Part shown: piece by piece, positions 59 through 48,266 of the stretch
Layout of the letters: every line of letters begins with the position of its first letter
Numbering within the stretch: position 1 is the first letter of the stretch
Assembly: GCF_040954645.1 (NCBI RefSeq)
Contig: NC_092808.1
Location: forward strand, 86,497,389-86,561,388
Length of the DNA: 64,000 nucleotides
Source: Diabrotica undecimpunctata
Taxonomy: Eukaryota > Arthropoda > Insecta > Coleoptera > Chrysomelidae
Direction of reading: 5' to 3'
Made by a program: the position numbers and the translations under genes
Notes under the pieces: model-generated
Databases searched by the model: none
The model's input: only the letters and a program-made list of their open reading frames with translations
Told to the model about the DNA's origin: nothing

Positions 59-1825
<1,767 letters not shown>

Positions 1826-9230: not shown

Positions 9231-11332
9231 CCCTTATCCGGACACTTATTTTTTCTAACGTAGTAGGACAGAGTGTGTCCATCGGACACACGGCAACAAT
9301 ATTACGGCATTTCATGTTATAATTAATAAAATGTGTATCAAATCTTTTGAATGTTTATTTCTAACTAATAAAGTAATAATTATTAAGTGCTTGCTTTATA
9401 AAAATTTAAAAAACAATCCATATCTAAACCTATAATAATCACTCACGTTTTACACTGCTGTATTCATTACAAACGTTCTTACTGCAACTATTACACGTTT
9501 AATTTTGTGTTCTTGTTTTTTTGATGGACATAGGTAACATCTTCTTTTGTGTGTTGACTGAGTTGCAGCATTTTGTGGCAGTTGCTTCTCCTGCAAAATT
9601 CGCTATAAGGGATCTGGTTGATTTGGATAATATGGGGCTTTATAAGTTGTTCTGCTGTTTCAATTATAAATAGACGTTTTTTTTGTGTCTTTTTATGTTC
9701 CATTTTGGATGCAAGTTGATCCAAATAACATAAGATGCTAGACAGCATACATCCAACATATTCATAAAATATGCGAAAGTCCAACGGTTTGTTGGATAGC
9801 ATATTATAAGCCATATCTAAGTCCGTAAAATAGTTATCAAATGTTATGTTCCTCTTGGTTCGATAATAAGGTTCGCTTAGTGAGGTCTTTTCTTTTACCT
9901 TCTTTGCCGAGATATGAAATCGCATTTAGAGGATAAAAAGTTTCTGAGTCACATGCCCACCATATTTTCATCCCATACTTGTCGGGTTTTGAGGAATTAT
10001 ACTATTTGAACGGACATCTTCCACGATAAGGTATCAACTGCTCGTCGATTGTTATATTTCGTGTTGGCAAATAATGCTTTTTCAAATTTTCCAATATTTT
10101 ATCCCATATATCGCGTATAGCAGCCAGTTTATCTTTTTTGCGTCTCTCGGATCTTGTCGTTTTGTCGTCGAAACGAATGAAACGCAAAACCTCCTTGAAC
10201 TGATTTATACCCATAGTGGCTCGAAAAATCTGTGGTCCATAAAGTGAATTCCATAAAGCTTCATAACTTGCATAGTTTGATTGATTTTAAATGCCCGGCG
10301 GTGAACAGGAGGCCAAAGAAAGCATACATTTCAATTCTATCACAGGACTTCCATGGTTTATTTTACAATACACCATGAGCCTCTAGATTGGTGTAACGGA
10401 AAATGTCATTCACAATATTTTCAGTCAAATATAAGCGAAATGTATCTATTGGTTCTTCAATGAGTGTTCCAGGTAGAAGTTGAGCTCTGTGTAATGGTCC
10501 TTTTACCATTTTCTGAATTTGTGTTCGTCCAGTCGGAAAAGGTTGTGATAACCACTCAGTTTTATCTTTTGCGGCATACATTTCTGGTTGACTGTTTCTG
10601 ATGTGTTCTTCAACAGCTGAAATTTTATTATAAAGTATTCTAGTCGATATCTACGTTTTATTTTATACTAACATGGATTTTTCTCTGATATTTGCTCATC
10701 CTCCTCTTCACTAGCTTCACAAATAATCATCATCTGATTCGGATTTCACGGCTAAATCCGCTACGCAGTGTTCGTCTTTATCAAAATCAGACAAGTTCTC
10801 AATTATATCTTTAAGCTCCGTTACGGTTAACTTTCTTTTGGCCATATTTACTATTTTATATATAGTTTAGTAGATCTGTAAAAACTACAACGTGAAGATA
10901 TTTCTACGTAAGGAATAAACATCAGTAAAATAAATTGAAAAACTTACCCGAAACTACAGGACTACGAAAATATGAAAAATAACAAAGTAAACTGCACTCT
11001 AGGCTAGCAAAAATGCAACTGAATGACTAGTCAGACTTGATTGGTACTTCATGTGACCGATAGTCGATAAATATTGATGATCAGTGGCGAAACCGCATCC
11101 AGTAGCATATTGTGTCCGCCGGACACACACTGTCCGGTTACGTTAGTAAAAATAATTTTATTTTTTATAGTTTATTTTGATTAGTTCAAAATATTGAGTT
11201 GTTGTCTCCAATAAGTTTACTTTAAAGTAGACAAAATCCTAATTTTTGATGTAATAATATACTGTGCTTTTCGAAATATACAGTAACATATCTATAAGTG
11301 TGTCCGATGGACACACCTTTTCTGGATAAGGG
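9231..11332 (-). mobile_element. piggyBac-like element #1, TTAA-flanked
   Basis: TTAA tetranucleotides sit at 9227-9230 and 11333-11336, exactly where piggyBac elements duplicate their target. The left terminus CCCTTATCCGG is mirrored by CC..GATAAGGG at the right. Subterminal palindromes built on TGTGTCC-NNN-GGACACA occur at 9273-9291, 11111-11127 and 11298-11316. The 2,102-bp element carries a minus-strand transposase broken by stops. It is therefore probably non-autonomous, but it has intact-looking ends and could be cross-mobilised. Confidence 0.9.
9439..10845 (-). pseudogene. piggyBac-like transposase #1, broken
   Basis: The start codon is taken at 10845-10843, opening MAKRKLTVTELKDIIENLSD and followed by an acidic stretch, typical of piggyBac N-termini. 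Three open pieces follow: 10363-10581 (N-terminal core), 10002-10214 (contains ITIDEQLIPYRGRCPF) and 9491-9925 (contains TFDNYFTDLDMAYNMLSNKP). A stop separates the last two. After 9491 a different frame reads a Cys-rich tail (CNSCSKNVCNEYSS) ending at a TGA at 9439-9441, fitting the terminal cysteine-rich DNA-binding domain. The family cuts and pastes at TTAA. Multiple stops and frameshifts rule out a functional product. Confidence 0.88.
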
Positions 11333-12406
11333 TTAAATGCAAATAATTTTAAAAATTTCAAAAAGTTTTAATATTTTATTTCGACATATGACAGTTAATA
11401 ATATCTCTTTCGGACATTTGGTACATAACCATAATTTTGAATTGTTTTGTTTGAATTTGAACGTAAATCTCAAAGTAAGCTCCGTTGAAAAATCTAGATA
11501 TTTTCATTTTAATATTAATTTAAATTTCTATGGTGTCCTCAACGTATGGAGCTTGTTGTAAATCTTTACAAATAGCGCCATTGTAAGTTTGTTTTTATAT
11601 ATTGTTAATATTATTTGAAATACCTTTTATTGTGAAGTAATAATAAATATGTAATAATTCTCTCTAAACCAAGTGTAGAACTATTTGCTTTAAAATATTC
11701 CCCTTTTAATACTTTTTAGGAAAGAAAAGCCCTTCTTTCCATCCAGCAAGAAGATTCTTTTAAATGGACCAATTTAAATAGTTTAGGAACCCTTCTTGTG
11801 TATGTTGCCCAGAAAATCTATGTAAGTATTTTTTTTAAATTCTTTCTTTATAGTTAACCCTTTTCAGTCTCTCTTTTATTCACTTACTTACGACCTAGCT
11901 CTCCAATCAAACCAAGAGTAACCGTTCGCAGACCTTTAGGTTTGTTTGCCTACCCTATTTCCAGCCCAGTAATTTCTGTCCCCAGTTTCAACTCCCTATA
12001 AGTGATAGTCAATATGGTATGCAAAATATTACCAGTACAAGTTTCTCCTTACCATCCCTTGTAAACTGAGACTTATTACTAAATAAACATTAGCACAGTA
12101 TCTTTCAATTTTCTGCAAATAGTTAGGTTGGATACTTATTTAATATTTTGTTTATTTGCAAAAACAGTTGTTTAGCACTGTATTTATAATAAGTTGGTCC
12201 ACACACATATAAGTTGCATTTCATTAGTTTCATTTTATTTTCCTGTTGGGAGTTCTCCATGTGCTATATGGAAACTAAACAAATTAGAGAAAGTTGTCAT
12301 TTGGTAACCGCCGGCCAGAAACGCGCAGTTGATATTCTTGTCGGGTAGCTTTGCCATTTCCATATGAAAATTCGTATACATACACCATACATATTAATTA
12401 GGAAAG
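9454..12406. repeat. Tandem duplication, copy 1 (2,953 bp)
   Basis: The sequence from 9454 to 12406 is repeated at 12407-15359 with a constant offset of 2,953. I saw about five substitutions (for example near 9787, 9846, 10812, 11145 and 11813), so identity is about 99.8%. The unit starts inside the piggyBac transposase tail and runs about 1.07 kb past the element's right end. The unit was therefore made after the piggyBac insertion. Confidence 0.95.
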
Positions 12407-13798
12407 ACTGCTGTATTCATTACAAACGTTCTTACTGCAACTATTACACGTTTAATTTTGTGTTCTTGTTTTTTTGATGGACATAGGTAACATCTTCTTT
12501 TGTGTGTTGACTGAGTTGCAGCATTTTGTGGCAGTTGCTTCTCCTGCAAAATTCGCTATAAGGGATCTGGTTGATTTGGATAATATGGGGCTTTATAAGT
12601 TGTTCTGCTGTTTCAATTATAAATAGACGTTTTTTTTGTGTCTTTTTATGTTCCATTTTGGATGCAAGTTGATCCAAATAACATAAGATGCTAGACAGCA
12701 TACATCCAACATATTCATAAAATATGCAAAAGTCCAACGGTTTGTTGGATAGCATATTATAAGCCATATCTAAGTCCGTAAAATAGTTATCAAATGTTAA
12801 GTTCCTCTTGGTTCGATAATAAGGTTCGCTTAGTGAGGTCTTTTCTTTTACCTTCTTTGCCGAGATATGAAATCGCATTTAGAGGATAAAAAGTTTCTGA
12901 GTCACATGCCCACCATATTTTCATCCCATACTTGTCGGGTTTTGAGGAATTATACTATTTGAACGGACATCTTCCACGATAAGGTATCAACTGCTCGTCG
13001 ATTGTTATATTTCGTGTTGGCAAATAATGCTTTTTCAAATTTTCCAATATTTTATCCCATATATCGCGTATAGCAGCCAGTTTATCTTTTTTGCGTCTCT
13101 CGGATCTTGTCGTTTTGTCGTCGAAACGAATGAAACGCAAAACCTCCTTGAACTGATTTATACCCATAGTGGCTCGAAAAATCTGTGGTCCATAAAGTGA
13201 ATTCCATAAAGCTTCATAACTTGCATAGTTTGATTGATTTTAAATGCCCGGCGGTGAACAGGAGGCCAAAGAAAGCATACATTTCAATTCTATCACAGGA
13301 CTTCCATGGTTTATTTTACAATACACCATGAGCCTCTAGATTGGTGTAACGGAAAATGTCATTCACAATATTTTCAGTCAAATATAAGCGAAATGTATCT
13401 ATTGGTTCTTCAATGAGTGTTCCAGGTAGAAGTTGAGCTCTGTGTAATGGTCCTTTTACCATTTTCTGAATTTGTGTTCGTCCAGTCGGAAAAGGTTGTG
13501 ATAACCACTCAGTTTTATCTTTTGCGGCATACATTTCTGGTTGACTGTTTCTGATGTGTTCTTCAACAGCTGAAATTTTATTATAAAGTATTCTAGTCGA
13601 TATCTACGTTTTATTTTATACTAACATGGATTTTTCTCTGATATTTGCTCATCCTCCTCTTCACTAGCTTCACAAATAATCATCATCTGATTCGGATTTC
13701 ACGGCTAAATCCGCTACGCAGTGTTCGTCTTTATCAAAATCAGACAAGTTCTCAATTATATCTTCAAGCTCCGTTACGGTTAACTTTCTTTTGGCCAT
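12398..13798 (-). pseudogene. piggyBac-like transposase #1, duplicated copy
   Basis: Same broken coding pieces as copy 1, at 13316-13534, 12955-13167 and 12444-12878, with two visible amino-acid differences (an Ile to Leu and an Arg to Cys). The start is at 13798 by homology. The duplication junction falls within the cysteine-rich tail and replaces the last residues, ending the frame at a new TAA (12398-12400) two codons after the junction. Not functional. Confidence 0.87.
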
Positions 13799-15830: not shown

Positions 15831-16270
15831 ACGAGACATATTTAAGAGACAGAAATTAAATAATTTTTTTTTTACTTGAAAAAAAAAAGTTCTTCTAATA
15901 TTTGAGCAGACATATATTCAAATAATATTGTTAATATTTTTGAGTAGCATTGCTGGGAGTACTTTATTGAAAGATAGTTTATTCGATTATGAAATCAACT
16001 TTAGCTTAAGAATACCCATCAGAAAAATTAAATGTAATTTTTCTTAAAAGAAAACAATTACATGCAATGATAAAATTCTCGTGTTAGTTATCCCGTCGTA
16101 GGTCGTGAGAAAAAAATTAGGAAAAAACGGTTATGATACATCCCGACACGGTAAGTATTTGGTCTTACATTTAGTTTACTCTCAATATTAGCCAAAATCT
16201 TGAAATTTAAATGTATGCTAGTTTAAAATATAAACGATTATATTCTCGATATGTTATTGACTCACTAATA

Positions 16271-16282
16271 GTAAATATTGTG
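16271..16282. repeat. 12-bp target-site duplication (left) of hammerhead array
   Basis: GTAAATATTGTG, repeated exactly at 17518-17529. The pair brackets the whole tandem array, as expected of a retrotransposed insertion. Confidence 0.75.
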
Positions 16283-16320
16283 AAAAAGACAGAAAAGATT
16301 TGATTTCACGTTCAAAGCGT

Positions 16321-16380
16321 CTATGTATCTATTGATACGTATTTCGACTTAATAAGTCTCATCAGAATAGTTATTCATAG
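16321..16380 (-). ncRNA. Type I hammerhead ribozyme, inverted copy
   Basis: The reverse complement is identical over 60 nt to the copies at 16785 and 17194, with every conserved core residue present. It lies in the inverted leading unit, so any RNA from the plus strand would carry its antisense. A transcript spanning both could form a long duplex instead of folding into the ribozyme. Confidence 0.88.
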
Positions 16381-16784
16381 CCGTTCTTAACGTGAAAATC
16401 AATTTTCTCTGTCTTATTAGAAGTAACAATAACATGACTTCGTTATGGACGCAATAGCGACATCTGATAGAAAAATTTTATTCGGATCTACTCTGTATGA
16501 GTACGAGAAACAAATTCGTTAGGATTTCTGCCTAGATGAATAGACATGTCGTGGAATGCAAATTTTAGATTCCCCATGTCTTCTTTAACTTCTTTAACAT
16601 CTTTATCATCGTCTGGTCATGTCTTGCAATTTTTAGAAGGCTCCAGATTAAAGCAGAAATCTGAATTTGTTTCGAAACTATCTTACCGATTTTTCTATCA
16701 GATGTCGCTATTGCGTCCATAACGAAGTCATGTTATTGTTACTTCTAATAAGACAGAGAAAATTGATTTTCACGTTAAGAACGG

Positions 16785-16844
16785 CTATGAATAACTATTC
16801 TGATGAGACTTATTAAGTCGAAATACGTATCAATAGATACATAG
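16785..16844 (+). ncRNA. Type I hammerhead ribozyme, copy 2
   Basis: Elements in order: outer stem I CTATG (16785-16789), internal loop AATAA, inner stem I CTATT (16795-16799), core CTGATGA (16800-16806), stem II GACTT / loop ATT / AAGTC (16807-16819), core GAAA (16820-16823), palindromic stem III TACGTA, the A15.1 partner T and cleavage base C (16831). The second strand of stem I is AATAG, internal loop ATA, CATAG (16832-16844). All pairings are Watson-Crick. Predicted self-cleavage is between 16831 and 16832. The stem III lacks a loop, as in animal hammerheads thought to act as dimers. The stem I internal loop could dock with the stem II loop. Confidence 0.92.
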
Positions 16845-17193
16845 ACGCTTTGAACGTGAAATCAAATCTTTTCTGTCTTTTTCATTTTATTCGGATCTAC
16901 TCTGTATGAGTACGAGAAACAAATTCGTTAGGATTTCTGCCTAGATGAATAGACATGTCGTGGAATGCAAATTTTAGATTCCCCATGTCTTCTTTAACTT
17001 CTTTAACATCTTTATCATCGTCTGGTCATGTCTTGCAAGTTTTAGAAGGCTCCAGATTAAAGCAGAAATCTGAATTTGTTTCGAAACTATCTTACCGATT
17101 TTTCTATCAGATGTCGCTATTGCGTCCATAACGAAGTCATGTTATTGTTACTTCTAATAAGACAGAGAAAATTGATTTTCACGTTAAGAACGG

Positions 17194-17253
17194 CTATGAA
17201 TAACTATTCTGATGAGACTTATTAAGTCGAAATACGTATCAATAGATACATAG
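17194..17253 (+). ncRNA. Type I hammerhead ribozyme, copy 3
   Basis: Exact repeat of the 16785-16844 ribozyme, 409 bp downstream, with cleavage predicted between 17240 and 17241. Cutting at this site and at 16831/16832 would release a 409-nt monomer. Hammerhead ends (2',3'-cyclic phosphate and 5'-OH) suit ligation into a circle. Confidence 0.92.
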
Positions 17254-17517
17254 ACGCTTTGAACGTGAAATCAAATCTTTTCTGTCTTTTTCATTTTATT
17301 CGGATCTACTCTGTATGAGTACGAGAAACAAATTCGTTAGGATTTCTGCCTAGATGAATAGACATGTCGTGGAATGCAAATTTTAGATTCCCCATGTCTT
17401 CTTTAACTTCTTTAACATCTTTATCATCGTCTGGTCATGTCTTGCAATTTTTAGAAGGCTCCAGATTAAAGCAGAAATCTGAATTTGTTTCGAAACTATC
17501 TTACCGAGTAAATATTG

Positions 17518-17529
17518 TGTTTATATGGA
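17518..17529. repeat. 12-bp target-site duplication (right) of hammerhead array
   Basis: GTAAATATTGTG, matching 16271-16282. The array's last unit stops just before it, mid-unit, without a poly(A) or simple-repeat tail. Confidence 0.75.
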
Positions 17530-20735: not shown

Positions 20736-22128
20736 AAACAGGGCGAAATAATTGTAGAATTGTGGATCTAAAATTCAAAAAGTTCTACTAATTTTCCAAA
20801 ATACTGACATCAACTCAAAAATATACTAAAATTCATTTTAAAAATATTCTTAACTTCTTTATAAGACTGAAATAACTCAAAATATTGCATTATTCTACAC
20901 AGAAGTGTTGTATTATCTTACTTTATTTTTGAGAAAGGCATATCTCAAAATACGACAGTATGGTGCAAATTGTTAGACCAGCTTTTTTATTTATCTTATC
21001 AACAATAAAGACACTTCTAATATCTGACGGTCATAGACATAAACTTACTTTCATCTTTCATCACACAAAAAAATATAGAATATTTAAAATCTGTTCACTA
21101 ATATAGTCTATTTTGTAAATCCAAACAATAAAGACAAGATATTCTTAAAATTACCCCAAACTATTAAAAAAACCCTCAGCTTGAGATTTTGCGGTAAAAA
21201 CTTGTATAAATGCAGAGAGTAGTTATTCAATGATTTGCCCAACCCCAAAATATCAAAATAACCTTTACCAGCACATGTTGTGTAAAAAACTAGTTTAAAT
21301 GCGTAAAACCACTAGTTAATCAACGATTTGGCCAACGCCCAGTCAATAGAGTATAATGACTAAAGTAATTTTAAGTATAATATGTAAATATATGGAGTCA
21401 TTTGTTTTGTTATATTATCTGTATGGTTATCATCTATTTAACCTGTTGCCCTGTATCTATTTTGAGAGCATCCAAAAACATGTTGAATATTATAATATTT
21501 AATTTGTATTATTAAACCCAATTCTTACTCCTCTTCAGATATTTGCTTGGATCACCAGGCGTTGATATTGACAGACATAAACACCCAAATACATATATAC
21601 TTTATACAATATTAAATTATTACGGTTAAAGTATTTTCAAAGCTTTCCGCTACGAAAGTCAGGAAGCTAAACTAATATGTTGTTAGTATTCAATAGTATA
21701 AATTATTTTATGTTGATGTGGGATAGAAGGTTGTTTTGATAAAATTAAAAACTTTTTTGATAAAATCTTCTTAAGCATACTGCTTTCAATAACTGTAACA
21801 TTAATATAAACATAGCATAACATTTTTTGTTGAAATCAAATGTATCTATCTATAATACTGTGTTTTTAACAAAAGGTAAAAGGTCGCAAAAATGTCAATA
21901 GTAGCATAGAAAAATGATCAATTTCTCGTCACGTTATTCTTGTCACTGAATAATATTCACTTTTAGGAACGTAGGCTGGTTGTAGAAAAGTCCAAGTAAA
22001 TATATTCTGACATTTCTTTTTAATTTTTGCGGAAATTATATTTTTTACTTTTGTCTGATTTTACTATCTGATTGACGTGATGCGGTAGGTGGTAGTATGA
22101 CAAGACCTGTTGCCAATTTTATATTATT
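20736..22128. other. Non-coding stretch with a weak direct repeat
   Basis: No gene was recognised. Two related blocks of about 55 bp occur at 21195-21245 and 21283-21340 (sharing TAAATGC, AGTT..TCAA.GATTTG and CCAAC.CC), apparently an old local duplication. Confidence 0.45.
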
Positions 22129-22140
22129 ATTGGTCACATT

Positions 22141-24341
22141 TTACCCGGGTGCGGACCCACAAACTTACCAGGGTGCGGACGTAGCATCAGACCACAATCC
22201 GGTGGTATGTAAGTTTGAAGTAAAGTTAAAAAAGCCAAATGTAAAGAACAGGCCCGAAACGCTAGATATTAGGAAGCTTTCCAACAATAATATTAAACAA
22301 CAGATGCAGGAGAATTTAAATACCGAAATATCAAAAATCCTTAAAAATAACAATGAACCGCTGGAAAAGTGGAGTGAAATTAAAGAAGAGATTAGGACTT
22401 CAAGCACTAAGTTTTTACTACTTGATAAGAGAAAAAAGAAAGACTGGATGACTGCAGAAATCCTTGACATGATGGAAGAGAGACGGATATATAAAATTAA
22501 AGATACTGCCAAATACCGCGAAACCCATAGACGAATTAGAGCTGAGATAAGAAAAACTAAAGAGAAATGGTTCTCGGAGAGATGCGAAGAAATCGAACAG
22601 TGCGAAAAGGTATACGTCTATCACAATATGCATAAGAAGATAAAGGAACTCACAATAAAGAAAAGTTACAATATTTTATCGAAAGGGCTATGCGATGATA
22701 ATGGAAATCTACAACTAGACCCCGACAAAATAGTTAGAATCTGGGAAACTTATGTGGAACAACTGTTTAATGATGACCGTCCTAGTGGGTATACACTGAG
22801 CAATGATGATACTGGCGCGTCTATTCTAAAATCAGAAGTGGAGAATGCTATAAAACGTCTTAAAAATAACAAAACACCAGGCAACGATAACGTATACGGG
22901 AAAGTATTGAAAATGCTATGCGAAACAAACAGTCAATTTCTAGACTCACTCGTCAGACTCTTGAACAATATTTATAGCAGCGGGGAGTTTCCTGAAGACT
23001 GGCTAGAGTCAACTTTTGTTGCCATACCGAAAAAACCAAAAGCAAAGTCTTGTGATCAACATCGGATGATAAGTCTAATTAACCACATTTCGAAGGCATA
23101 CACCAAGGTTATTTACAACAGAATAAGCAAAAAATGCGAGGATAACATTGGAGATTTGCAGTTTGGGTTTCGGAATTCTCTTGGGACAAGAGAAGCACTT
23201 TTTAGTCTGCAGGTACTCATCCAGCGCTGCAGAGATATGAACAAAGACGTGTACATATGCTTTATAGACTACGCAAAAGCATTCGATAACGTAAAGCACG
23301 AAAAGATAATTGAAGTTCTCCATAAGATCGGAGTCGACTACAGAGACATTCGAACAATAGCGAGTCTCTATTGGGGCCAAACAGCTAAAGTGAAAGTAGG
23401 ATCTACATTGACCAATAAAATTGAGATCAAGAAAGGGGTAACAAAGGGCTGTATCTTGTCTCCTATTGTCTTTAATATATACTCAGAAGAAGTATTTAAG
23501 ACAGCGCTGGAGGAAAGCACAGAAGGCATAAAGATAAATGGAGAAATAATTAATAACATAAGGTATGCTCATGACACTGTGATTCTAGCAAGTAGCATGG
23601 AGGAACTAAGTTGCCTAATGAGTAAGATACAAAAAACAAGTGCACAATACGGACTCAGACTAAATATTACAAAAACCAAATGGATGCTAGTAAGCAAAAC
23701 CCAACAACCACCACAGCAACTGATATTAGACAATGAAAGAATTGAACACGTGGATTCGTACATCTACTTGGGAACAACAGTTAACTCAAATTGGGATCAA
23801 GCGAAGGAAATACGTATAAGAGTAGAAAAGGCAAGAGCATCGTTCACTAGCATGAAGCAAATTTTCACCTCTAAATGCCTCACCCTACCTCTCAAAATTC
23901 GACTTCTGAAATGTTATGTATTCCCGGTTTTTGTTATATGGTATGGAGGCGTGGACAATGACCGCAACATTGATAAAAAAAGTAGAGGCCTTCGAAATGT
24001 GGGCTTACCGACGAATATTACGTATATCCTGGACTGAACACGTGACTAACGAAGAAGTACTACGCCGGATAGGTAAAGAGAGAGAAGTAGGAATAAGTAT
24101 AAAGAAAAGAAAGTTGGAATACTTGGGTCACGTTATGAGACATAATAAATATAGAGTACTACAACTGATCGTTCAAAGGAAAATAGACAGCAGAAGGGGT
24201 CCAGGGAGGAGAAGACACTTGTGGCTTCTAAACTTGCGGCAATGGTTCGGATTGTCATCTGCTGAACTATTCAGATCTGCCGTAAACAAAGTCAGAATAG
24301 GCATGTTTATTGCCAACGTTCGGAACGGACAAGGCACATGA
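22141..24341 (+). pseudogene. Endonuclease-reverse transcriptase, truncated and mutated
   Basis: The frame runs 22097-24037, but its first 15 codons are flanking DNA. In order it has the tail of the AP-endonuclease domain, a Lys/Glu-rich linker, then RT blocks FVAIPKKPKAKSCDQHRMIS, LQFGFRNSLGTREAL and ICFIDYAKAFDNVKHEK. The catalytic box is RYAHDT (codons at 23564-23575), with His where Asp is expected in YADD. A one-base indel around 23930 shifts the reading into the 23916-24341 frame, which carries AFEMWAYRRILRISW and the C-terminus. The active-site change and the frameshift both argue against activity. Confidence 0.9.
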
Positions 24342-25652: not shown

Positions 25653-26254
25653 TGAGTGGGAGCCTTGTAAACGGCTCCCTATATTCGAGGGTTGGAAATC
25701 TTTTGATTCCAAGCCTTACTTCAAAGGACTTGTGAATGGATGTATCTCCATAGGTTTGGTTCTTCAGTGACCGTTGAAGGATAAGGATTGTTAAGGTGAG
25801 CAAATATTGCTCCAGAGAAATAAAATCACTTCAAGTTTATCGACTTATAATTAACTATTTTTAGATTAAAGAGGTTCAAAACGACCGTAGCTGACAGTAC
25901 AGTATCAAATAATTCTTTCTTTATCACACGTAAAAGAGAAAAACCGTATTTATGAGAAAAAATGCCCGATTTCGGCGTAGAGAAATATTTTATACGTGAA
26001 TTGAGAGTGAATTTAAATTTCGATGCCTCAAGGGCGATCTGTGAGAACTAACTAATAAAATAAAATTTGGTGCGTAAAAGTGTAGATTGCCCCTCTTGTA
26101 TTTAGGTGTGAAAACTATTTAAGAGGCTGTGGCGCCGTTAAGTCGACTAGCAAACTTGATATTAGTGAATATTTTACTTATTCTACACTAAGAAAAGTGT
26201 AAAGAACTATATTTTTATTTTGTATTTTAAAATGATATGTTCATTTCTGGAACA
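25653..26254 (-). repeat. BEL 3' LTR
   Basis: In coding orientation it begins TGTTCCAGAAATGAAC and ends CTCCCACTCA, giving TG...CA termini. Compared with the other LTR it differs at about five sites, including the penultimate base of the terminal CA. Confidence 0.92.
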
Positions 26255-26397
26255 TAGACTGCCCGCGTTGAAGTATTTACTTCAAAACGAAAGAAAGAGT
26301 GATTTGAGAAAGTAAGCAAACTTAACTTAAATGTAATTTAAGAAATAACTATTCCTAAACTAGAGTAATACATATAAATGTGACAAAATTTAAAATT

Positions 26398-28326
26398 TTA
26401 ATTTTCTACTTTGTCCACAGGAAGAGGACAGAGTTTTGTAATGGGTCTGTTAAAATATCCATCTCTAGTCTTTATTTTAACACTACGGACCTTATCGTCC
26501 TTACCAGTAAACAATTCAACAATTCTTGCCAATGGCCAGTGTAGGGGTGGAACTTTATCTTCCTTTAATAGAACTAAGTCGTTAACTTCAAGATTCTTCT
26601 GTGGTGTTAACCACTTGGGGCGATTCTGAAGTTGATTAAGGTAATCAATTTTCCAGCGTTTGGCAAATGATTGCTGAATCTTCATGTAGTTTTGCCAAAT
26701 TGTTAATTTATTGTCAGGTTTTTCCGTCACTATCTCTTCAGGAAATGACGTAATTGGTTTTCCTATTAGGAAATGTCCTGGAGACAATGTGTTAAAGTCA
26801 TTTGGATCATTTGACATAGCACAAAGAGGGCGTGAGTTTAGTACTGCTTCTATTTGTGCGAGAACTGTGCTAAAGGCTTCAAAAGTTAAAGTGGTATTGC
26901 CTAAAAGCCTTAAAATGTGATATTTGGCACTTTTTATGGCTGCCTCCCAAATTCCACCATGATGCGGAGAATGGGCTACAATAAATTTCCATTGGATTTC
27001 AGAAGAGGAGAGAAAATTGAATATGGACTCAAAGGTTTCCTTTTGTTTAAGAAATAGTGCAACTTCCCTCAACTGATTTCTAGCTCCTAGAAAATTAGTG
27101 GCGTTATCTGAGTAGATAATTTGTGGACAGCTTCTCCTACTGATGAATATTTTTAAAGCAAGTAAGAAACTTTCGGTAGAGAGACCTGTGACTAATTCGA
27201 TGTGCACTGCACGAGTAACCATACATACGAACAACGCTATGTAGGATTTTATTTTTGGAGCCTTTCTTAAATTGGAGCTTTTTATAAGAAATGGACCACC
27301 AAAGTCTAGACCAACATTGGTAAATGGAGGGGAGAAACATGAACGTTCCCGTGGTAAATCAGCCATTAACTGTGTGGCTGTCTTTGCTTTAAATTTAAAA
27401 CAATCGTGACACTTATTAATTATCCTTTTAGTTTCTTTGAGACCATTTAGACACCAATATCTTAAACGAAAATTGGAAAGAGTATTTTGAGGGCCTGCAT
27501 GACATAATCTTATATGTTCTCTATGCAGCATTAATTTTACTATGTGATTATGAGAGGGTAGAAGTAATGGGTACTTCTGTTCATATGGGACGTCTGAGTA
27601 CCTTAGACGACCACCTACACGAATCATTTGCTGATTATCTATGAATGGGTTGAGTTTTAAAATTGTTCTATTTGAAATTATCTCCTTATTTTTAAGACAA
27701 GAAAATTCTCGAAAAAAGTGTGCCTTTTGCAAAAGTTTTATTATTAAATTTTCAGCATTTTTTAATTCTGAAACAGAGAAGGGTCCAACATATTTTTCAT
27801 TTGGAAACTTGAAATTGTGAATGTACCTGAGAATAAGTGTGATACTGCGTTGTAGTTTTGAGAAGTTTAAAAATTTGAGAGATAAATTATTTTCAATGAA
27901 ACTTATTGGACTTTCTTGTGCTAGATGAACTATTTTCTTTTCCTCGGGTATTTTACTTACATTTGGTTTTGAATCATAAGAAGTTAAATCTAAGTTATAA
28001 TTAAGTAGAAATGAGGGACCTTGAAACCAAAATTTTGAGTTTAGAAGTTCAGGAGCAAACATGCCTCTTGACGCAATATCTGCGGGGTTTTGTTTTGACT
28101 TTATATATCGCCACTTAAATTGTGGGTTTCCTTGTATTTCAGAAACTCTATTTGCAACAAACTGTGACCATCTCGAGCTATGTGAGCCTAACCAAGCAAG
28201 TACGATTTCTGAGTCCGTCCAGCAGTTTATTGAGTCTATTTGAGTTAATTTATTATTTAGAATTTCAACTATTCTTTTAGTGAGTTTGCTGCATAAAACA
28301 GCACCCATAAGTTCTAACTTAGGCAA
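26398..28326 (-). pseudogene. BEL polyprotein, RNase H-integrase part
   Basis: A 642-codon open frame. It opens with an RNase H-like segment (PKLELMGAVLCSKL, then NCWTDSEIVLAWLGSHSSRW). The integrase zinc-binding region follows (HIRLCHAGPQNTL ... INKCHDCFKFKA). The integrase core shows its first Asp in VGLDFGGPF, its second in YSDNATNF and its Glu in HHGGIWEAAIKSAKYH. The C-terminus (LLKEDKVPPLHWPLARI) matches the domain that usually closes BEL polyproteins. The apparent start Met is internal; this was once continuous with the 28580-31891 frame. The frame itself is undamaged. Confidence 0.9.
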
Positions 28327-28579
28327 AGTTAATGTTTTTATTGGAGCTACCCTACTTTTAGAGGTGATGAGTGTGGAAGAGACATTCCTTGAGCTATAAG
28401 TAACTCTAATATATATGCAGCTGACGTATGCCTTCTCACTAGCGTCGGAAAATGCGTGGATTTGTATACTACATACATAATTTTCAATAAAAAAAAGGTC
28501 TGTGAATTTTTAAATGTTTTAGTGCTGAAATATGTTTAAGAAAATTTAACCATTCATTCAAGAGTGTAGATTCTAAACT
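28327..28579 (-). pseudogene. BEL polyprotein, broken joint
   Basis: The stretch between the two open frames still encodes the RT-RNase H connection in pieces, with an in-frame stop just after SKIQWN (28580) and a frame change before 28326. These lesions separate reverse transcriptase from RNase H and integrase. Confidence 0.75.
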
Positions 28580-31500
28580 TTAATTCCACTGAATTTTTGA
28601 AAGCCAAATTTTTTGCATTATTATTTTTGCAGTTACTATTACAGGATTAATTAATCCCTTGGGGTCGAAAAAACTTGCGATTATCGAGAGCACTTGTCTC
28701 TTAGTGTAGGAATCTTTTATTTCGATTTCTGGTACTGAAATAGAGAAACTATCTAATTTAGAGTCCCAACAAAGACCTAATATTTTATTGGAATGATTTT
28801 CTGAAGATATAACATACGTAGAGTCAGTTGAAAATTGTGAAATATTTTCTAAAAATTGTGGTGAATTTGAACACCATTTGTGAAGAGATATGCCTGCCTT
28901 TTGTAGCAGTGCAGTGATTTGCTCATGCGCAAGTGTGAGTGTTTCAATACTATTTGTACCATATAGTATGTCATCAATATAGCAAAAATTAATGAGCATA
29001 TCATGAGCGAGAGAATATTCTTCCTTATGCATGTTTGCGAGTTCAATTAAACATCGTGTGCTAAGGAAGGTAGCTGGTTTCGTTCCATAGGTAACCGTTT
29101 CCAATTGTATACATTTTAACGGCTCCGAGGGAGAGTTGCGCCACAAAATATTTAATAAGAAAGTTTGGTTGGGGTTTATTCTGATTTGTCTAAACATCTT
29201 TTTTATATCAGATGTGAATACATACTTGAAGAGTCTAAAGCTGACTAAAGTGTCAAATAGTTCTGGTTGTGTGGTATAACCCTTTAACATAATATCATTA
29301 AGGCTAAAACCAGAAGTGGTTTTCATGGATGCGTCAAAAACTACGCGCAAACGAGTTGTGAGAGAAGTGTCTTTTTCTACACTGTGGTGAGGCAAGAAAT
29401 ATTTGTTTTCTGAGTGTACATTCTGCAGAGAGAACGGAACATATTTTGCATGTCCTAATTCAACATACTCATCTATAAAAGATTTATATTGTTTGTAAAG
29501 AGAATCATTTTTTGAGAATTTGTTCTCCAAATTTAGAAATCGCCTTCGCGCCATTTGGAAAGAGTCGCCCAATTTATTATTTTCATTAGGCGTGCATAGG
29601 GGTAAATCTACTTGGAACTGTCCATTCGGTTGGATTTGTGTTGTGGCTTTAAATATTTTCTCAGCCTTTTCATCATCAGGACTTAAATGCTTTATTTCGG
29701 GAACTTCTTCAATGTCCCAAAACCTTTGGAGAAGATTATTTATATTTTCTTCTTCAGTGTGAGATTGAACAAATAAAGAAATATGATTCGAGTGTGAATA
29801 GTTACAGTTTGAGTGAGAGTGCATCTTTTTCTTAGATGAAACTTGTGGAGATAAGTAACCGAACATGACATATCCTAAATGAGTGTTTTGAAGCACTGGA
29901 AGACCTGCTCCAATATGAATTAAACCATCCTTTAATAGATCACAGTAAATTTCTGCACCTAATAAGAGATCGATTCTCCCTGGGGAGGAGTAAGAGGGAT
30001 CACTGAGCTTTATGCCAGCTGGTATTTTTATTTTGCTACGATCTAGAGGTACCTGAGGTATTTTACACGTAATATTATCCAAAACTGCACATGATACTTC
30101 AAATTTCATATCATTGTTTTTATATGGGAAAAATTCAATGTTTACCATTTCATTTGAGATGGAACAATTTTGAGAGATTGTGGAAACTTGTAATCTTTTA
30201 TTAGTGGTAGAGTAATTTAGTTTATTTACTAAATCTTTTGTTGCAAAGCTCGATTGAGATCCATTATCGAGAAGACATCTTAAGTGTACAGGTTGTCCAC
30301 TTTTAGAGTAAATTGTTACCAGCGCTGTGGCTAGCAAAACTTCGTTTTTTGGATTGAAAGTGGAGAGAGAAGAGATGCAAGATGAATTTTGACTTTGTGT
30401 GTCTGAGAGTAGACAATATTCATTTGTCTGAGTGCTTAAGTGAGTAGAAGTGTTTGGTGATTCATTATATGAATGTATAGAATTAATTCTTTGAGTAACT
30501 TGGGCATTATTACTCCTTTGAGGAGCATGAAAATGACTTTGAGAGATATGTGGTGAACTATGGCGAGTTTGTGAATCACCCTGTATACTTGCGGAGGATT
30601 GAGAGGTTTGTGGTGCATTAAAGCGTGATTGTTGCCTATTGGCGTGACTTTGATTACCATCATGTGAATTTGAAGCACTTTGATTGCTTCGAGTGGGAGA
30701 GAATAAATTATTTTCATGAGTGTGAGAAAAATTATTTTCTCCATGCAGAAGTGTATTGTGCTTTTTATTGCAAATTTTACATGTGTATTTAGAGATGCAT
30801 TTATCAGTAAAATGCTTAGTGCCAAAACAGTTTCTGCAAAGCTGTGCTTGCTTTACAAAATTAAACCTTTCTCGAGAATTTGTGTCTTTAAATAAGTTAC
30901 ACTGATATATTTTATGACCAGTTTGTTTACAAAATATGCAATTTTCATAGCTAGATTTATTATTATTTATAGTAGAAATATGAGCAGTTTTTTGAGTGAC
31001 TTTATTATTAAACTTTGACTGAGTTTCAGTGTAATTAAGTTTCTCTAAAACATCACATCTTTTTTCTAGAAATTCAAAAAAGTGTTTGAGTGTTGGAACA
31101 TTCTTAGAACCTACTTTATATTCAAAAGCCTTGTGAGAAGCAAAATCTATTTTTTCTAAAAATATTTCTATTAAAAGGAGGTCCCAATGTTCAATTGGAA
31201 CTTCGAGATTACTAAGAGCTTGAAGCGTTTGCTTCGTGTGTACAAGAAAATCTCTTAGTACCTGAGGAGTGCATTTACCTAGAGATTGAGACTTTAACAG
31301 CTTTTTTATAAGAGTACTAATCACTCGTGATTTGTCATCATATCTTTCTTTTAGGGTTTTTATAGCGATAGCAAAATTTGCATCTACTACTTCGATACTG
31401 CTAATTAAGTTTAAAGGTTCTCCTTTGAGGAAGGATTTTAAATATATAAACTTTTGTACATTATTTAAACTTGAATTGTTTGTGATCAGAGTTTCAAATA

Positions 31501-31891
31501 GTTGAAAGATTTCATTGAATTCTGAGAAATTGCCGGTAAAGGTTTTCATGCTAATTTCAGGCAGCCTCGCACTGGAAACAGCATTATTATTTGAGCTAGG
31601 TGCTTTATTTTCTGTTAAATTTAATTCTATTATTTTTCTTTGCAAATCTTTGAGTGTGTTGAAGTATTTTTCTTCAACATTTGCTCGATCAGCTGATTGT
31701 TGGTCGCTGTCATCAGTCTGTTCGATTTCTAATTGAATTTGTTCGTATTGTGTGAAAAAATTAAAAAGTTTTTCTTTCCTATTTTCAAAATCAAGTATTT
31801 CGTTTTCTGTATCTTTATTGGCTATAAACCATTCTGAGATACGTGTAATTGATGCTTGAAGTGATTTGCGCTTTTTCTTTAAAGCTTCCAT
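28580..31891 (-). pseudogene. BEL polyprotein, Gag-protease-RT part
   Basis: A 1,103-codon open frame starting MEALKKKRKSLQASITRI, a typical charged BEL Gag start. Residues about 110-190 form the DUF1759-like Gag core (KTFTGNFSEFNEIFQLFETL). CCHC-type clusters follow (CIFCKQTGHKIYQC; then CRNCFGTKHFTDKC). A Ser/Gln/His-rich linker leads to the protease (LRCLLDNGSQSSFATKDL). Reverse transcriptase comes last, with LRVVFDASMKTTSG and the catalytic box FCYIDDILYG. No stop occurs within it, but the polyprotein ends prematurely, so integrase is not made in frame. Confidence 0.92.
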
Positions 31892-32474
31892 TTTTTATTT
31901 AAAAGTGAATTTATTTGCAAATATATGCTGAGCGAGAAATAAGAGTGAATGATTTTGTTTAGTGTAAATGTCTTTTTCAACTAAGACGCGATTTTAATTT
32001 TAATAGAGTATTTTTACTAGAGTGATAAACAAATATTATTCGTGAGAGCGGGCTGTGAGACAATCTGTATAATAAACAATTGTCAGCTATCTTTAGCGAT
32101 ATTGAGAAGAAAGATCTGATGTCAAATCAAAGCCATTAGTTAATGTAAATATTAATAAACAAATAAAAGTCAAGACAAATATCTACCAATATAAATTATG
32201 TGCATGCAGTGATTATAGAAATATATAGAAAGAGTTTTAACCTCACCAAATGTTTTTCAAGTATCCAATTTAATTACCGCTGTCGCTTACCAGCACATAA
32301 CGCACTTTTCACAAAACACACGTGTCTAATCTTGAACGAAGGTCAACTTGTGCAATCTTTCTTCTAGGGACGAGAAACCATTATTCTTTCTTCCTGTTGC
32401 TCTCCGGCGTGTGTAATCCTTTTCTTTCTTCAGTCCTGTTTCATCAAATAATCTGTGCTCGATAGGACCACGAA
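31892..32474 (-). promoter_or_regulatory. BEL 5' untranslated leader with primer-binding site
   Basis: A non-coding leader between the 5' LTR and the Gag start. On the minus strand a primer-binding-like word TGGTCCTATCGAGC starts four bases inside the 5' LTR (complement at about 32457-32470). The matching tRNA was not identified. Confidence 0.6.
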
Positions 32475-33076
32475 TAAGTGGGAGCCTTGTAAACAGCTCC
32501 CTATATTCGAGGGTTGGAAATCTTTTGATTCCAAGCCTTACTTCAAAGGACTTGTGAATGGATGTATCTCCATAGGTTTGGTTCTTCAGTGACCGTTGAA
32601 GGATAGGGATTGTTAAGGTGAGCAAATATTGCTCCAGAGAAATAAAATCACTTCAAGTTTATCGACTTATAATTAACTATTTTTAGATTAAAGAGGTTCA
32701 AAACGACCGTAGCTGACAGTACAGTATCAAATAATTCTTTCTTTATCACACGTAAAAGAGAAAAACCGTATTTATGAGAAAAAATGCCCGATTTCGGCGT
32801 AGAGAAATATTTTATACGTGAATTGAGAGTGAATTTAAATTCCGATGCCTCAAGGGCGATCTGTGAGAACTAACTAATAAAATAAAATTTGGTGCGTAAA
32901 AGTGTAGATTGCCCCTCTTGTATTTAGGTGTGAAAACTATTTAAGAGGCTGTGGCGCCGTTAAGTCGGCTAGCAAACTTGATATTAGTGAATATTTTACT
33001 TATTCTACACTAAGAAAAGTGTAAAGAACTATATTTTTATTTTGTATTTTAAAATGATATGTTCATTTCTGGAACA
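32475..33076 (-). repeat. BEL 5' LTR
   Basis: Same length (602 bp) as the 3' LTR. Its inner end reads CTTA rather than CTCA in coding orientation, a single change that spoils the terminal CA. Confidence 0.92.
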
Positions 33077-36149: not shown

Positions 36150-37661
36150 ATGGACGAAAAACCGAGTTGTTCCAAGAGAAGACAGCAAAATTCTGATGTT
36201 GATTCCAAAAATGAAAAGCCGCAAAAGAGACGGAAAATGTTAACGTCCGAAGGGAAGGTAATGATACGAAACGTTTATGAAGGAATTGTCGGCAGAAAAT
36301 GGCATTAAATGTTAGCCAAGCGGTCGACATTTGTAGCAGTTTAACAAAAGTATCCGTTAGCTGTATTTATCGTGTACTTAAAAATACATCGGAAAATAAT
36401 AAGCAAGAAAAAGGAAAAACTAGAGGTAGGAAAAGCATTAAGGCGTAACTAACACTGGCGAACTTTTGCATGCCGCAAAAGACAGACGTCTGACCTTAAG
36501 ATAATTCGCCAACGCACTATATGTGCACGGCACCATAAGAAGAAGGAAAAGCATTGTTTTCGATGACGAGACAAGGAATATTATACGTCAAAAAATTCAT
36601 TCATTTTATTTTGTGTGAGTGAAATTCCAACACTGAAAAAAATTTCTCAAGAGCTCAAAAACGATAACTCTTTACCCAAGATATCTCATAGGGTCTTAAT
36701 CAGAACCATGCGCGAAATGAACTTTCTAAAACGCAACAGAAAAAGTATGCTATTAGAAAAAAATGAAATTATTCGGTGGAAAAGAAAATATTTAGAAGAA
36801 ATACGAAAAATTCGCAGCACTGGATTCAAAATATATTATTTGGATGAAACCTGGATTAACGAAGGTGATACAGTTGGAAAAGTTTGGCAAGATTTAAATG
36901 TCAAAAGTAAACGCGAAGCATTTATAGAAGGCTGGTCTACAGGATTAAAAGCTTCATCAGGAAAGGACGGCGTTTAATTATCACCCATATAGGAAGTGAT
37001 ACTGGGTTCTTTGATAATGGTTTGCTTCAATTTGAGTCAAAAAAAAACAGGTGATTATCATAAAGAAATGACTTCCGAAGTATTTGAGCGCTGGTATAAG
37101 AGAATCTTATCAAAATTGGAATCTGGGTCTGTGGTTGTTATGGACAATGCGCCATATCATAGCCGCAGACTAGAACAATTACCGACGACGGCATGGCGAA
37201 AAGGGAGAATTCAAGAATGGCTTACAGAACAGGGGATTGCATACGAAGAATCAATGCTCAAAATTCAACAACTTGACATTGCACGGTTAAGGAAAAGTGA
37301 ATATCTTAAATATGTTGTGGATGAAACTGCAAAAGATTATGGTGTCAAAGTTCTACGTCTACCAACTTATCATTGCGAACTTGATCCCATTGAACTTATC
37401 TGGGCGCAAGTGAAAGGAAAAGTAGCACGCAATAACAAAACGCTCAAATTAAACGAAGTAAGGGAACTTTTGATTCAAGCAATCCTCCATGTAACTCCAG
37501 AGAAATGGGCTAAATGTATAGGCCACATAATTAAAGAAGACTATCGTATGTGGGAACTTGACACTCATATCAAAGTTTTACTAGAGCCAATTATAATTAC
37601 ACCAGGTGAAGATAATGACAGCGATAGCAGCACTGCATCTTCAGATTTAGACAGCGAATAA
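36150..37661 (+). pseudogene. DDE_3 (IS630/Tc1-type) transposase, interrupted
   Basis: Start taken at the ATG at 36150 (MDEKPSCSKRRQ). A frame change near 36295 leads to a helix-turn-helix-like segment (NVSQAVDICSSLTKVSVS). A 104-bp insert sits at 36440-36543. The next frame (36615-36977) holds the first catalytic Asp in YYLDETWI. A frame change near 36965 and another at a run of A's near 37040 lead to the last frame (36996-37661). That frame holds the second Asp in VVVMDNAPYHS and the Glu in YHCELDPIELIWAQVK. The C-terminus is an Asp/Ser-rich tail. Only a handful of lesions are visible, so inactivation is fairly recent. An unspliced domesticated gene is the alternative. Confidence 0.8.
36440..36543 (+). 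mobile_element. 104-bp SINE-like insertion with 12-bp TSD
   Basis: AGGAAAAGCATT occurs at 36428-36439 and 36544-36555, flanking the insert. The insert ends GGCACCATAAGAAGA, close to the GGCACATGAAGAAGAAGA end of the LINE at 22141-24350. Inside, TGGCGAA and TTCGCCA form an inverted pair. It is probably a truncated SINE or LINE 3' end mobilised by the same machinery. Confidence 0.7.
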
Positions 37662-39708: not shown

Positions 39709-41293
39709 TTATTTTACTAAAACTGTATAAAATATTAATACATTAGAACACATATTATTTGGTATGAAATTTCCTAAAACAGTTTTGGCTTTGGTGAGAC
39801 ATAGGTAAACATCACATTTAAGACATCTAACACGGGTTCTGCTTTTACAACCCGACCTTCTGCAAAATCTTGCTGCAGTTAAGTGGTCAATATTTGGCCA
39901 ATGTTCGTAACCATCTAACCTTTTATCTTCAGCTGGTTGTGGAGCTCGATAATTTTGTGGCCTGATTTGTGTTTCGTCTTGTGTTTCTTCTTCATCAACC
40001 TGTTCTTTCAGTTCTTCATTTGATCTTTTTCCTTTAGGTGACGATAATAAACTTTTAACGACTTCCATTCTAAATGTATAAAGATCTCGTATTTTAGATT
40101 TTGGAATATTATTTGACCGGCAATATTCGCGGTATTCCACCCAAGCATTTACTACGACTAAATCTAAAAAATGAAGTATGACTTTTAATGTCCACTTTCT
40201 GGTTTTTATCCAGGTTCTATAATATTCAAGTTGCTGGTCGCAGATGTCTACTCCACCCATATTAATATTGTAAGTTCTTACTATTTCAGGGCATTTGACG
40301 TCTACGTATTGTTTTTCTGTCTTACACCACCTTCTGACACTTTGTTCTGGTTTAATCCCTGACGCATTTGACAACATAGCAATGGATTTGGTATCCCGCC
40401 ATTTAACAGCAACCATGTTTTGTTCACTGCAATAAAACTGTTCACTGTCTCCTCTTCCAAATTTATTATCTGGTGTATATAAGGTATATATCCAAAAACA
40501 AGATGGGCACCATAGAGTTTCATTATTTCAGATGGTGTTGTATTAAGTTCTGTACCTTTCTTAGACAAACAATATATATTCGTATACGTAGCTGCCTGCT
40601 GGAAATGGCTATCTGGAAAATACTTTTCAAAATATGTAGTGCATTAGACTCTGAACAATTACATCTGTTCGATTACCTAGAAAATCTTTTTTATTTGGTT
40701 TATTCTCGATGCCCTGAAATGAACGTTTGCTCCACCGAAATGAAGGCTTTTCCATTTTAGAACTACGGTTTCCAGTGGTGTGTGGTTGATCAAATATGGG
40801 AGCTGCAGTTACACCTGAAGGACCAGAAGCCTCAACGTCATTTTGTGAACACGGGTTTTTGTTGTGAATTAGGAAATTGTCACGAGTATCTTCTCCTTCT
40901 TGGTCAGAATCCGAGGATTCGCTGTCTCCGAGGCTTTTGCGAAGGCTATTTGGCTCAATACTCCACACCGGGTCAGAATCTGAGTCATCACTAAAGCCTT
41001 CTAGTTCTGAATCTTCATAAATAATGTTCATTGCCTCTTCGATATCTTCTGGTTTGTTAAAGTCAAAATCTGCAAAAAGAGATAAGGACAATAATGATAA
41101 TCCAACCCACACAATTGTGTTGGTAGTAATGTAATTGGATATTTTGAGATTATAATATCATTTTTTAAATGTGTATATGTAGGTGCTTTCTATACAGATG
41201 TAGTAGTAATCTACATGCATTTACATTTTATTATTGACATTTTTTAATAACACAAAGTTACTTACATTTCTTACGGAATTGACGACTCGCCAT
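39709..41293 (-). pseudogene. piggyBac-like transposase #2, internally deleted, with intron
   Basis: The start is placed at 41293-41291 (MASRQFRKK). A GTAAGT donor follows at 41265 and a polypyrimidine-CAG acceptor ends at 41070, defining a 196-nt intron. Splicing joins in frame to an acidic segment (FDFNKPEDIEEAMNIIYEDS). The apparent upstream Met near 41112 is intronic. The N-terminal frame runs to 40627, another piece lies at 40302-40568, and the C-terminal half at 39709-40416. The last contains SIAMLSNASG, MGGVDICDQQLEYYRTWI and a Cys-rich tail. Between the last two pieces the catalytic core with its first Asp residues is largely missing. Confidence 0.8.
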
Positions 41294-41364: not shown

Positions 41365-41368
41365 CACT
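41365..41368. repeat. Gypsy #1 target-site duplication (left)
   Basis: CACT, matched at 48064-48067. Confidence 0.85.
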
Positions 41369-41674
41369 AGTTACAGTACAATGACCGCTACCATCCAGTA
41401 AGTTCCACCACGTGGATTCCAACACGGGGCTACCGCTTGAACATTCTGGACTAAATTGCGACGTATTGAACAGCAAGATCAGCAATTAATAAATTATAAA
41501 AACACCATGTTAAAATCAATATTTTTCAGTCTGATTAATTAAAAGTCTGATTTAAAATTATAGTCTGATTTAAATTATTATTGTTGTTACTAAAATCTTT
41601 GTAAGTCGAAATAAAAGTTTTAATTGTGAAGTTCAGTTTTTAAAAAAGTATTTTTCCCAAGAACATTCATAATT
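41369..41674 (+). repeat. Gypsy #1 5' LTR
   Basis: Begins AGTTACAGTACAATGACC and ends ACATTCATAATT. I found no difference from 47758-48063. Confidence 0.95.
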
Positions 41675-42227
41675 GGCGCAGAGTCAGTACGGAAGTGGAA
41701 GAGTCTTTATAGATCCTCGTCACTTTTAAGTGTTTGTCCACTGTTCCAAGAACCAGCCCCAGGGAAACCGTCTGCAGAGTTCACCCGAGGGAATTAGAGA
41801 ATTAGAAGTTAGAAGAAGCCTTCAGGAGCAAAGGAATGCACATCGGCATCGTCTTTATCCTGTAAGCGATTTTATTATTACTTAGAATTAAGAAGATTAG
41901 ATTTTGAAAGAATTCTTAATAAATCAGACTCCTCTGAGTCCTTAGATTGAATCAGAGCTAAATTAGAAGATAAATAAAACAAAGATTTGAATAGATTAAC
42001 ACAAAGATTAAAGTAATTTAAAAATATCTCCTCTAAGTCCTTAGATTGACTTAAGAGTCAGATTTAGACAAAATTGAATAGCTTAATAAATACTATATAT
42101 TAATAAACATAGAGATTAATAGATAGAAAATAAGTAGATTAAGATTGATATATTTATATATTGATTATTGAAAATTACTATACCTATTTGACTATTGACT
42201 ATATATTATATTAAAAATTTTTAAAAT
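41675..42227 (+). promoter_or_regulatory. Gypsy #1 primer-binding site and leader
   Basis: GGCGCAGAGTCAGTACGG follows the LTR directly (from about 41675, sharing the final T of the LTR as TGGCGC). A 550-bp AT-rich leader follows up to the gag ATG. The leader has an imperfect repeat around CTCCTCTAAGTCCTTAGATTG / CTCTGAGTCCTTAGATTGA (about 41935 and 42030). Confidence 0.75.
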
Positions 42228-47685: not shown

Positions 47686-47745
47686 CGACGAAACTCCAGA
47701 AGAGGCCAACTCAACAGTTCTGTTCGTCCCTCACAAAACTTCTTC

Positions 47746-47757
47746 AGGGGATGGAGT
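47746..47757 (+). promoter_or_regulatory. Gypsy #1 polypurine tract
   Basis: AGGGGATGGAGT immediately precedes the 3' LTR, as required for plus-strand DNA priming. Confidence 0.75.

Positions 47758-48216: not shown

Positions 48217-48266
<50 letters not shown>
48178..48266. repeat. (TA)n microsatellite, interrupted
   Basis: A TA tract with a few substitutions. It lies between the right end of piggyBac-like element #2 and the truncated LTR of gypsy #2. Confidence 0.92.

Follow-up and report, generated by a model that had tools for sequence, protein, structure and literature searches.

What kind of element is the hammerhead-bearing repeat array at positions 16283-17506 of the window (the whole 64-kb stretch of beetle DNA analysed here), and by what route did it enter the genome? 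The array is one insertion, with a 13-bp target duplication on both sides. It is organized head to head, such that a 195-bp minus arm is followed by approximately 2.5 plus-strand units of 409 bp. The left arm (16282-16476) is identical to the reverse complement of unit positions 215-409, and the final base of the left duplication is readable also as the first base of the element. Beyond the centre lie two consecutive plus-strand 409-bp units and then about 215 bp of a third, as delimited by TRF and BLAST. The features of the insertion and its flanks are as follows.

16270-16282, no strand: left target duplication AGTAAATATTGTG, an exact 13-nt direct repeat with 17507-17519
16283-16476, minus strand: left arm, inverted unit positions 215-409, entered from end X (sequence identity and a minus-strand BLAST block)
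16286-16415, minus strand: minus copy of hairpin A, the ribozyme with its long stem I (unit 276-405 of the circular fold, projected)
16334-16365, minus strand: hammerhead core 1, exact 32-nt core, predicted cut between 16334 and 16333
16475-16476, no strand: centre junction of the arms, a 2-nt overlap (AT) from arm comparison
16475-16883, plus strand: unit 1, 409 bp (TRF and BLAST blocks)
16507-16673, plus strand: predicted hairpin B of unit 1 (unit 33-199 of the circular fold)
16750-16879, plus strand: predicted hairpin A of unit 1 (unit 276-405; linear fold z = -5.1)
16800-16831, plus strand: hammerhead core 2, exact core, predicted cut 16831/16832
16884-17292, plus strand: unit 2, 409 bp, with one base unlike units 1 and 3 (17039, G versus T)
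17209-17240, plus strand: hammerhead core 3, exact core, predicted cut 17240/17241
17293-17506, plus strand: unit 3, partial (BLAST), terminating at site Y (CTTACCG/A)
17507-17519, no strand: right target duplication AGTAAATATTGTG, an exact repeat of 16270-16282

The 409-bp unit has a GC content of 33.7% and is non-coding, as the longest ATG frame round the circle is 58 amino acids on the plus strand and 51 on the minus strand. A search of the unit for internal promoter boxes returned one minus-strand B-box word, and neither an A box nor a TATA word was found there. A DNA transposon with terminal inverted repeats was also considered and rejected, because the two outer ends are unlike in sequence and the inverted parts are not constant from locus to locus.

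An earlier note on this DNA had described three tandem hammerhead modules. All three are present, with identical 32-nt cores of which none would be expected by chance, and each reads CTGATGA-GACTT-ATT-AAGTC-GAAA-TACGTA-TC without mismatch (3/3). The tandem arrangement applies to cores 2 and 3, which lie in successive plus-strand units exactly one 409-bp period apart that differ at one base, whereas core 1 (16334-16365) is on the minus strand. The C reported at the cleavage position is found at 16831 and 17240. When we scanned for CTGANGA, a stem II of at least 4 bp, GAAA, a short stem III, U-H and a stem I of at least 4 bp, the 64-kb window gave three matches, compared with none in 20 resampled windows. 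Stem II is formed by GACTT and AAGTC with a 3-nt loop, stem III as read consists of two pairs closed by ACGU, and stem I is divided by an internal loop into an inner part of 5 bp and a long outer part. The exact cores and their pairing place the open stem at stem I, as in type I hammerheads. The further statement that all helices pair perfectly was too strong, given the two-pair stem III closed by ACGU, the internal loops in the long stem I, and a free fold that is 2.3 kcal/mol better than the hammerhead-constrained fold, in which stem III still stays open.

To this structure we aligned 17 distinct 139-nt versions of the ribozyme. Standard pairs fill 95.8% of pair cells, a value helped by our having drawn the structure from the copy in the window itself. 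In loci L003 and L006 both bases of two stem II pairs are replaced (A-U to C-G and C-G to U-A). The percentage paired, the cells changed on both sides and the covariation score were reached by 0 of 500 shuffles; the double-changed pairs, reached by 19 of 500, and the further pair types, reached by 196 of 500, do not go beyond shuffles. In the long stem as drawn, two of the pairs do not form in most of the 17 sequences (15 for one pair, 16 for the other). At curated cut-offs Rfam gives no match in the window; below them, each copy scores 20.5 bits with RAGATH-1-hammerhead (cut-off 56.3), alongside unrelated families. From core and pairing, the RNA would be expected to cleave itself. As a separate observation, a stem II variant with two compensatory changes, GCTTT/AAAGC, occurs at two separate loci (L003/L044 and L006) whose unit lengths differ.

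Scoring of 40 of 693 candidates gave at least 192 matches to the unit across the genome, which excludes the case, allowed for in the earlier note, of a repeat present only at one locus. We assembled 38 loci from 150 of these 192 matches, and the locus counts given here are for the matches listed. By match orientation, 21 loci are minus-then-plus, 13 are minus only and four are plus only; the plus-then-minus order is found in none of the 38. Reading of the sequences revealed second arms in L011 (just 40 bp), L019 and L068, so that at least 24 of the 38 loci are two-armed, always minus-then-plus. Six loci are single-armed on reading (L005+L004, L012+L013, L010, L044, L066 and L067). The counts for eight of the 38 come without a sequence reading, and L006 and L011 were read in part. 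The two-armed share is taken from the 38-locus set because L031-L050 were chosen mostly for having both orientations (19 of 20). Among 60 full units nearly all measure 399-402 bp; the 409-bp length given earlier for the unit is true of the window and of one of two units in L044 (the other is 418 bp), and is a minor length variant in the family, as is the 391 bp of one unit in L042. Tandem units of a few hundred base pairs (409 or 400 bp) thus occur in many dispersed loci, and the window locus is an insertion of an animal-type (non-LTR) retrozyme family. The family has been active recently, since the units of L031 are identical. The suggestion that the element is non-autonomous, multi-copy and hammerhead-bearing, of the same kind as animal retrozymes and accompanied by target duplications, is therefore upheld.

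The ends of these insertions carry much of the information about how they were made. We number end positions on a 400-bp unit that starts from the first of two sites. Site X is at 400/1 (CTGTCTTTTTC), at the 3' base of hairpin A, and site Y is at 202-220 (CTATCTTACCGA), just beyond hairpin B. One X and one Y form the outer ends of 19 of the 23 two-armed loci examined, and X+X or Y+Y ends are found in none of the 23. The other four have one X or Y end together with a different one (L035, 325; L041, 138; L046, 240; L011, 186), the left end of L011, a Y, being taken from match coordinates. If ends were drawn independently, the probability of 19 mixed pairs out of 19 would be about 4e-6. The predicted ribozyme cut (348/349) coincides with neither X nor Y, and synthesis therefore seems to start inside the RNA. 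No oligo-A end is present at X or Y. A likeness between X and Y (11 of 16 bases) was considered as a common start signal and dropped, as the unit contains a further 16-mer that is just as close to X.

Flanking sequences were compared in a 23-locus set that excludes the joined loci L005+L004 and L012+L013 as well as L006, L011, L066, L067 and L068. A word of at least 10 nt is common to both flanks in 20 of 23 loci, compared with 3 of 506 swapped pairs. Duplications are 12-13 nt long in 16 of the 23, those of at least 10 nt are 83% A+T, and the retrozyme character of target duplications longer than 4 bp is thus present. The duplication of L068 is 12 nt; in L066 and L067 a duplication was looked for and none is in view. 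Among 19 sites oriented by their X end, two of them (L035 and L041) typed at one end alone, A occupies the second base outside the duplication in 17 and the mirror-image T in 16. The target motif AAAN-12/13-NTTT is therefore dyad-symmetric, as read without a background set in a window of 68% A+T, and such symmetry would suit an enzyme for which one motif marks the cut in each of the two strands.

The two arms of a locus also resemble each other more than they resemble other loci. Two units show on average 0.81 differences when they share an arm (54 pairs) and 0.59 when they lie in opposite arms of a locus (59 pairs), compared with 5.50 when they come from different loci (1657 pairs); L031, whose 12 full units are identical, supplies 30 of the 54 and 36 of the 59 pairs. 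When non-consensus bases were scored by arm majority in the 22 loci with both arms, 47 were found in both arms and 39 counts were one-arm. The shared ones amount to 6.0 per kb, versus 1.1 per kb for arms of different loci; L044, which has no second arm, contributes nothing to this count. Judged from these sequences, the variants common to both arms would be most simply explained by a monomer circle that is copied repeatedly.

Such a circle is predicted to fold into two hairpins, B (33-199) and A (276-405) of the 409-bp unit. The half of the unit that the earlier note could not recognize forms the second of these hairpins, with site Y directly beyond it. With hairpin B left out, X and Y are 44-62 nt apart. 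At the centre junctions (n = 20) the arms overlap by 2-21 nt in 11 cases and have 0-24 nt between them in nine. On the circle, five of the 20 centres have their two inner ends no more than 20 nt apart and the other 15 have them separated by 43-195 nt; the majority of centres are therefore non-palindromic. Of the 40 inner ends, six fall at unit positions 1-5, just before hairpin A, a pattern noticed post hoc that looks as if the hairpin or a bound protein halts synthesis.

Head-to-head inserts with target duplications are a property of Penelope elements, and we therefore examined the Penelope elements of this genome. A GIY-YIG profile gives at least 73 matches (150 of 6686 candidates scored), of which 15 loci (L051-L065) were read, picked for open frames or paired matches. 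In L051 the GIY-YIG match is above its cut-off and RVT_1 just below (29 versus 29.6 bits); a search with this protein returned no solved structural relative at E 0.01. An inverted pair is found in 11 of the 15 loci, some of the pairs being short or weak (L055 and L056). The hammerhead scan gives 13 matches to minimal hammerheads in nine of the 15 loci and none in 20 resampled sets, and Rfam flagged none of these hammerheads. Several Penelope families coexist, with minimal hammerheads of the CTGAAGA, CTGATGA and CTGAGGA types (L051-L065).

Eight Penelope loci were inspected at their ends. In six (L053, L054, L057, L058, L060 and L062) one end is 30-42 nt longer than the other; the exceptions are L051, with two long ends, and L065, which is not clear. 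All eight lie in (TA)n runs, as if the inspected families target TA microsatellites. The retrozyme insertion shares with these elements the head-to-head arrangement with one short and one longer end, and so carries a Penelope-like footprint. Its target is not identical to theirs (AAAN-12/13-NTTT versus (TA)n). The unit has no reverse transcriptase or GIY-YIG frame, and because its longest frame is 58 amino acids the retrozyme is not itself a Penelope element; sequence likeness between the unit and L051 is confined to short pieces at chance level. Near Penelope-type sequence we also noted a mir-981 precursor (L054:4930-5007, minus strand; Rfam 62.6 bits, cut-off 51).

We consider it fairly probable that the insertions arise when an RNA circle is reverse-transcribed from both cut strands of the target by a Penelope-type enzyme. 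Retrozyme copies would be transcribed and the hammerhead would cut the RNA into monomers of about 400 nt, which a host ligase may close into circles that fold into hairpins A (ribozyme) and B. A dimer of a Penelope-type endonuclease/reverse transcriptase could then cut the target at matching motifs, with the cuts in the two strands about 12 bp apart. DNA synthesis would be primed on each target strand and would start at a fixed internal site of the RNA, X for one strand and Y for the other. The two cDNAs would each travel round the circle a variable number of times before being joined in mid-insert. The array expected from this is head to head, ends in X on one side and in Y on the other, and is flanked by a duplication of 12-13 bp.

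By analogy, a Penelope-type enzyme is probably the driver of the retrozyme. Published systems are cited here from excerpts of the papers. According to the excerpted text of PMC11167929, both strands are cut and extended by a purified Penelope-like protein, which begins synthesis within its RNA at two adjacent sites. Three observations on the same in vitro system point the other way: start sites are alike on both strands, ribozyme mutants leave insertion unaffected, and uncut RNA is the main substrate (PMC11167929, in excerpt). We hold the odds slightly lower for these contrary points and because X and Y are 44-62 nt rather than about 40 nt apart. No individual driver is named, since the inspected Penelope loci lie in (TA)n and the retrozymes at AAAN-12/13-NTTT; this target mismatch is the main gap in the Penelope-driver reading. 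A more specific version, which we put forward tentatively, is that a Penelope-type dimer holds one ribozyme circle at two fixed sites, one for each half of the dimer, and copies it from both cut DNA strands at once. The same rule might explain the Penelope tail, and hairpin B would serve as the X-Y spacer, holding the two sites about one tail length apart (44-62 compared with 30-42 nt).

The same enzyme, priming on both strands, could instead have copied a linear multimer, transcribed from an older array and left uncut. Such a template agrees with X and Y being different from the ribozyme cut site and with uncut RNA as the main substrate of the purified protein (PMC11167929, in excerpt), and a homogeneous source array would yield homogeneous copies. 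What makes it unlikely is that in L038 and L041 variants absent from the other sampled loci are present in all units of both arms. This pattern needs source arrays that are already homogeneous, which itself calls for a rolling step, and the units of one locus seldom mix states that differ between loci.

Twin priming is a LINE process that gives inversions, and an inverted arm might thus be produced by LINE-type machinery through target-primed synthesis. The second cuts made by LINEs are not known to be sequence-specific; here both target strands carry the same motif, the outer ends are fixed start sites, one X and one Y, and these are without oligo-A. We judge a LINE origin to be quite improbable even though the window holds an RVT_1 reverse transcriptase frame of unassigned type (22097-24037), LINEs are named as possible drivers in the excerpted PMC7229834, and the 15-bp duplications of Nematostella repeats are likened to those of LINEs in the part of PMC4918200 used. 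Fold-back self-priming on an antisense template, proposed for rotifer Penelope elements in the excerpted PMC3846280, could likewise make an inverted arm, and the five of 20 centres whose inner ends lie no more than 20 nt apart on the circle agree with it. With inner ends 43-195 nt apart in the other 15, and with two different outer ends plus a duplication not expected from simple fold-back, it is a very improbable source of these arrays. Tandem and inverted repeats in an AT-rich genome could also be ordinary satellite DNA or an inverted-repeat assembly artefact without mobility. That explanation is scarcely credible for loci on many contigs with fixed ends, target duplications far above the swapped control, and a plus-then-minus order in 0 of 38 among the matches listed.

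Reverse transcription of an RNA circle from both target strands would join features of systems already in print. Like metazoan non-LTR retrozymes as described in the excerpted PMC7229834 and PMC7761336, the beetle family has small non-coding tandem units of low GC, a type I hammerhead, duplications longer than 4 bp and a predicted self-paired circle. The earlier suggestion that the family is possibly undescribed does not hold for the kind, as animal retrozymes of about 170-400 nt are reported in that portion of PMC7229834, and the beetle unit of 400-409 bp is at the top of the published metazoan range as given there. It differs from the metazoan retrozymes in those excerpts in that its arrays are head to head, end at two fixed outer sites and lie at a symmetric target motif; neither 'inverted' nor 'head-to-head' appears in the main text of PMC7229834. 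The enzyme that moves animal retrozymes is left open in the same parts of PMC7229834 and PMC7761336, with LINEs or Penelope elements named as candidates.

With Penelope elements (PMC3846280 and PMC11167929, both in excerpt) the family shares head-to-head inserts, a target duplication, a one-sided end extension ('tail'), a hammerhead, AT-rich targets, RNA-internal starts and the extension of both strands. The tail is given as 30-40 bp in the excerpt of PMC11167929 and 31 bp in that of PMC3846280. Unlike Penelope elements, the retrozyme has no protein, and its hammerhead exceeds the minimal Penelope type in length. Retrozyme duplications measure 12-13 bp, compared with 8-10 bp in rotifer Penelope elements (PMC3846280, excerpted part). 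Plant LTR retrozymes (PMC4918200 and PMC7761336, likewise in excerpt) are also hammerhead-bearing non-autonomous retroelements and have a circular RNA, which in the beetle is predicted. They possess LTRs, a primer-binding site and a polypurine tract, and have a type III hammerhead and a 4-bp duplication, whereas in the beetle stem I is open and duplications are mostly 12-13 bp. Another insect tandem repeat with a hammerhead, pDo500 of Dolichopoda cave crickets, is described as satellite DNA in the excerpted PMC2837043, and we liken it by description alone, not by sequence.

Animal retrozymes, the idea of a Penelope or LINE driver, and Penelope head-to-head inserts with a one-sided tail are thus already in print in these excerpts. 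In the open-access literature searched we came across no account of retrozymes that stand head to head and have two fixed ends. The family is of a known kind, and its insertion anatomy is new as far as that literature goes. It offers many insertions with readable ends, including L031 with its 12 identical full units, and makes both the mover of animal retrozymes and the origin of Penelope head-to-head inserts open to test. If the template is circular, both strands are primed and the starts are fixed, then X+Y ends, symmetric motifs and arm-shared variants are predicted. If correct, this would be a system, found in nature, in which a small RNA circle is written into tandem DNA, and the two-site rule would explain the long-known tail on one inverted Penelope pseudo-LTR.

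The window contains several other mobile or repeated sequences. A Pao-type LTR element at 25655-32776 has Peptidase_A17 and DUF1759 frames between repeats that are 99% alike and 6822 bp apart. Two further LTR-type elements lie at 41368-48056 and 48263-56430; one of the two has Ty3-like gag and pol and identical repeats 6389 bp apart, and the other a pol fragment and 98-99%-alike repeats about 6.9 kb apart. Near-identical direct duplications are present at 59223-62178 and 9454-12706, with spacings of 1727 and 2953 bp, and pieces of DNA transposon-like frames (DUF4817, DDE_3 and DDE_Tnp_1_7) occur at 903-1346 (minus strand), 36996-37661 (plus strand) and 39709-40416 (minus strand).
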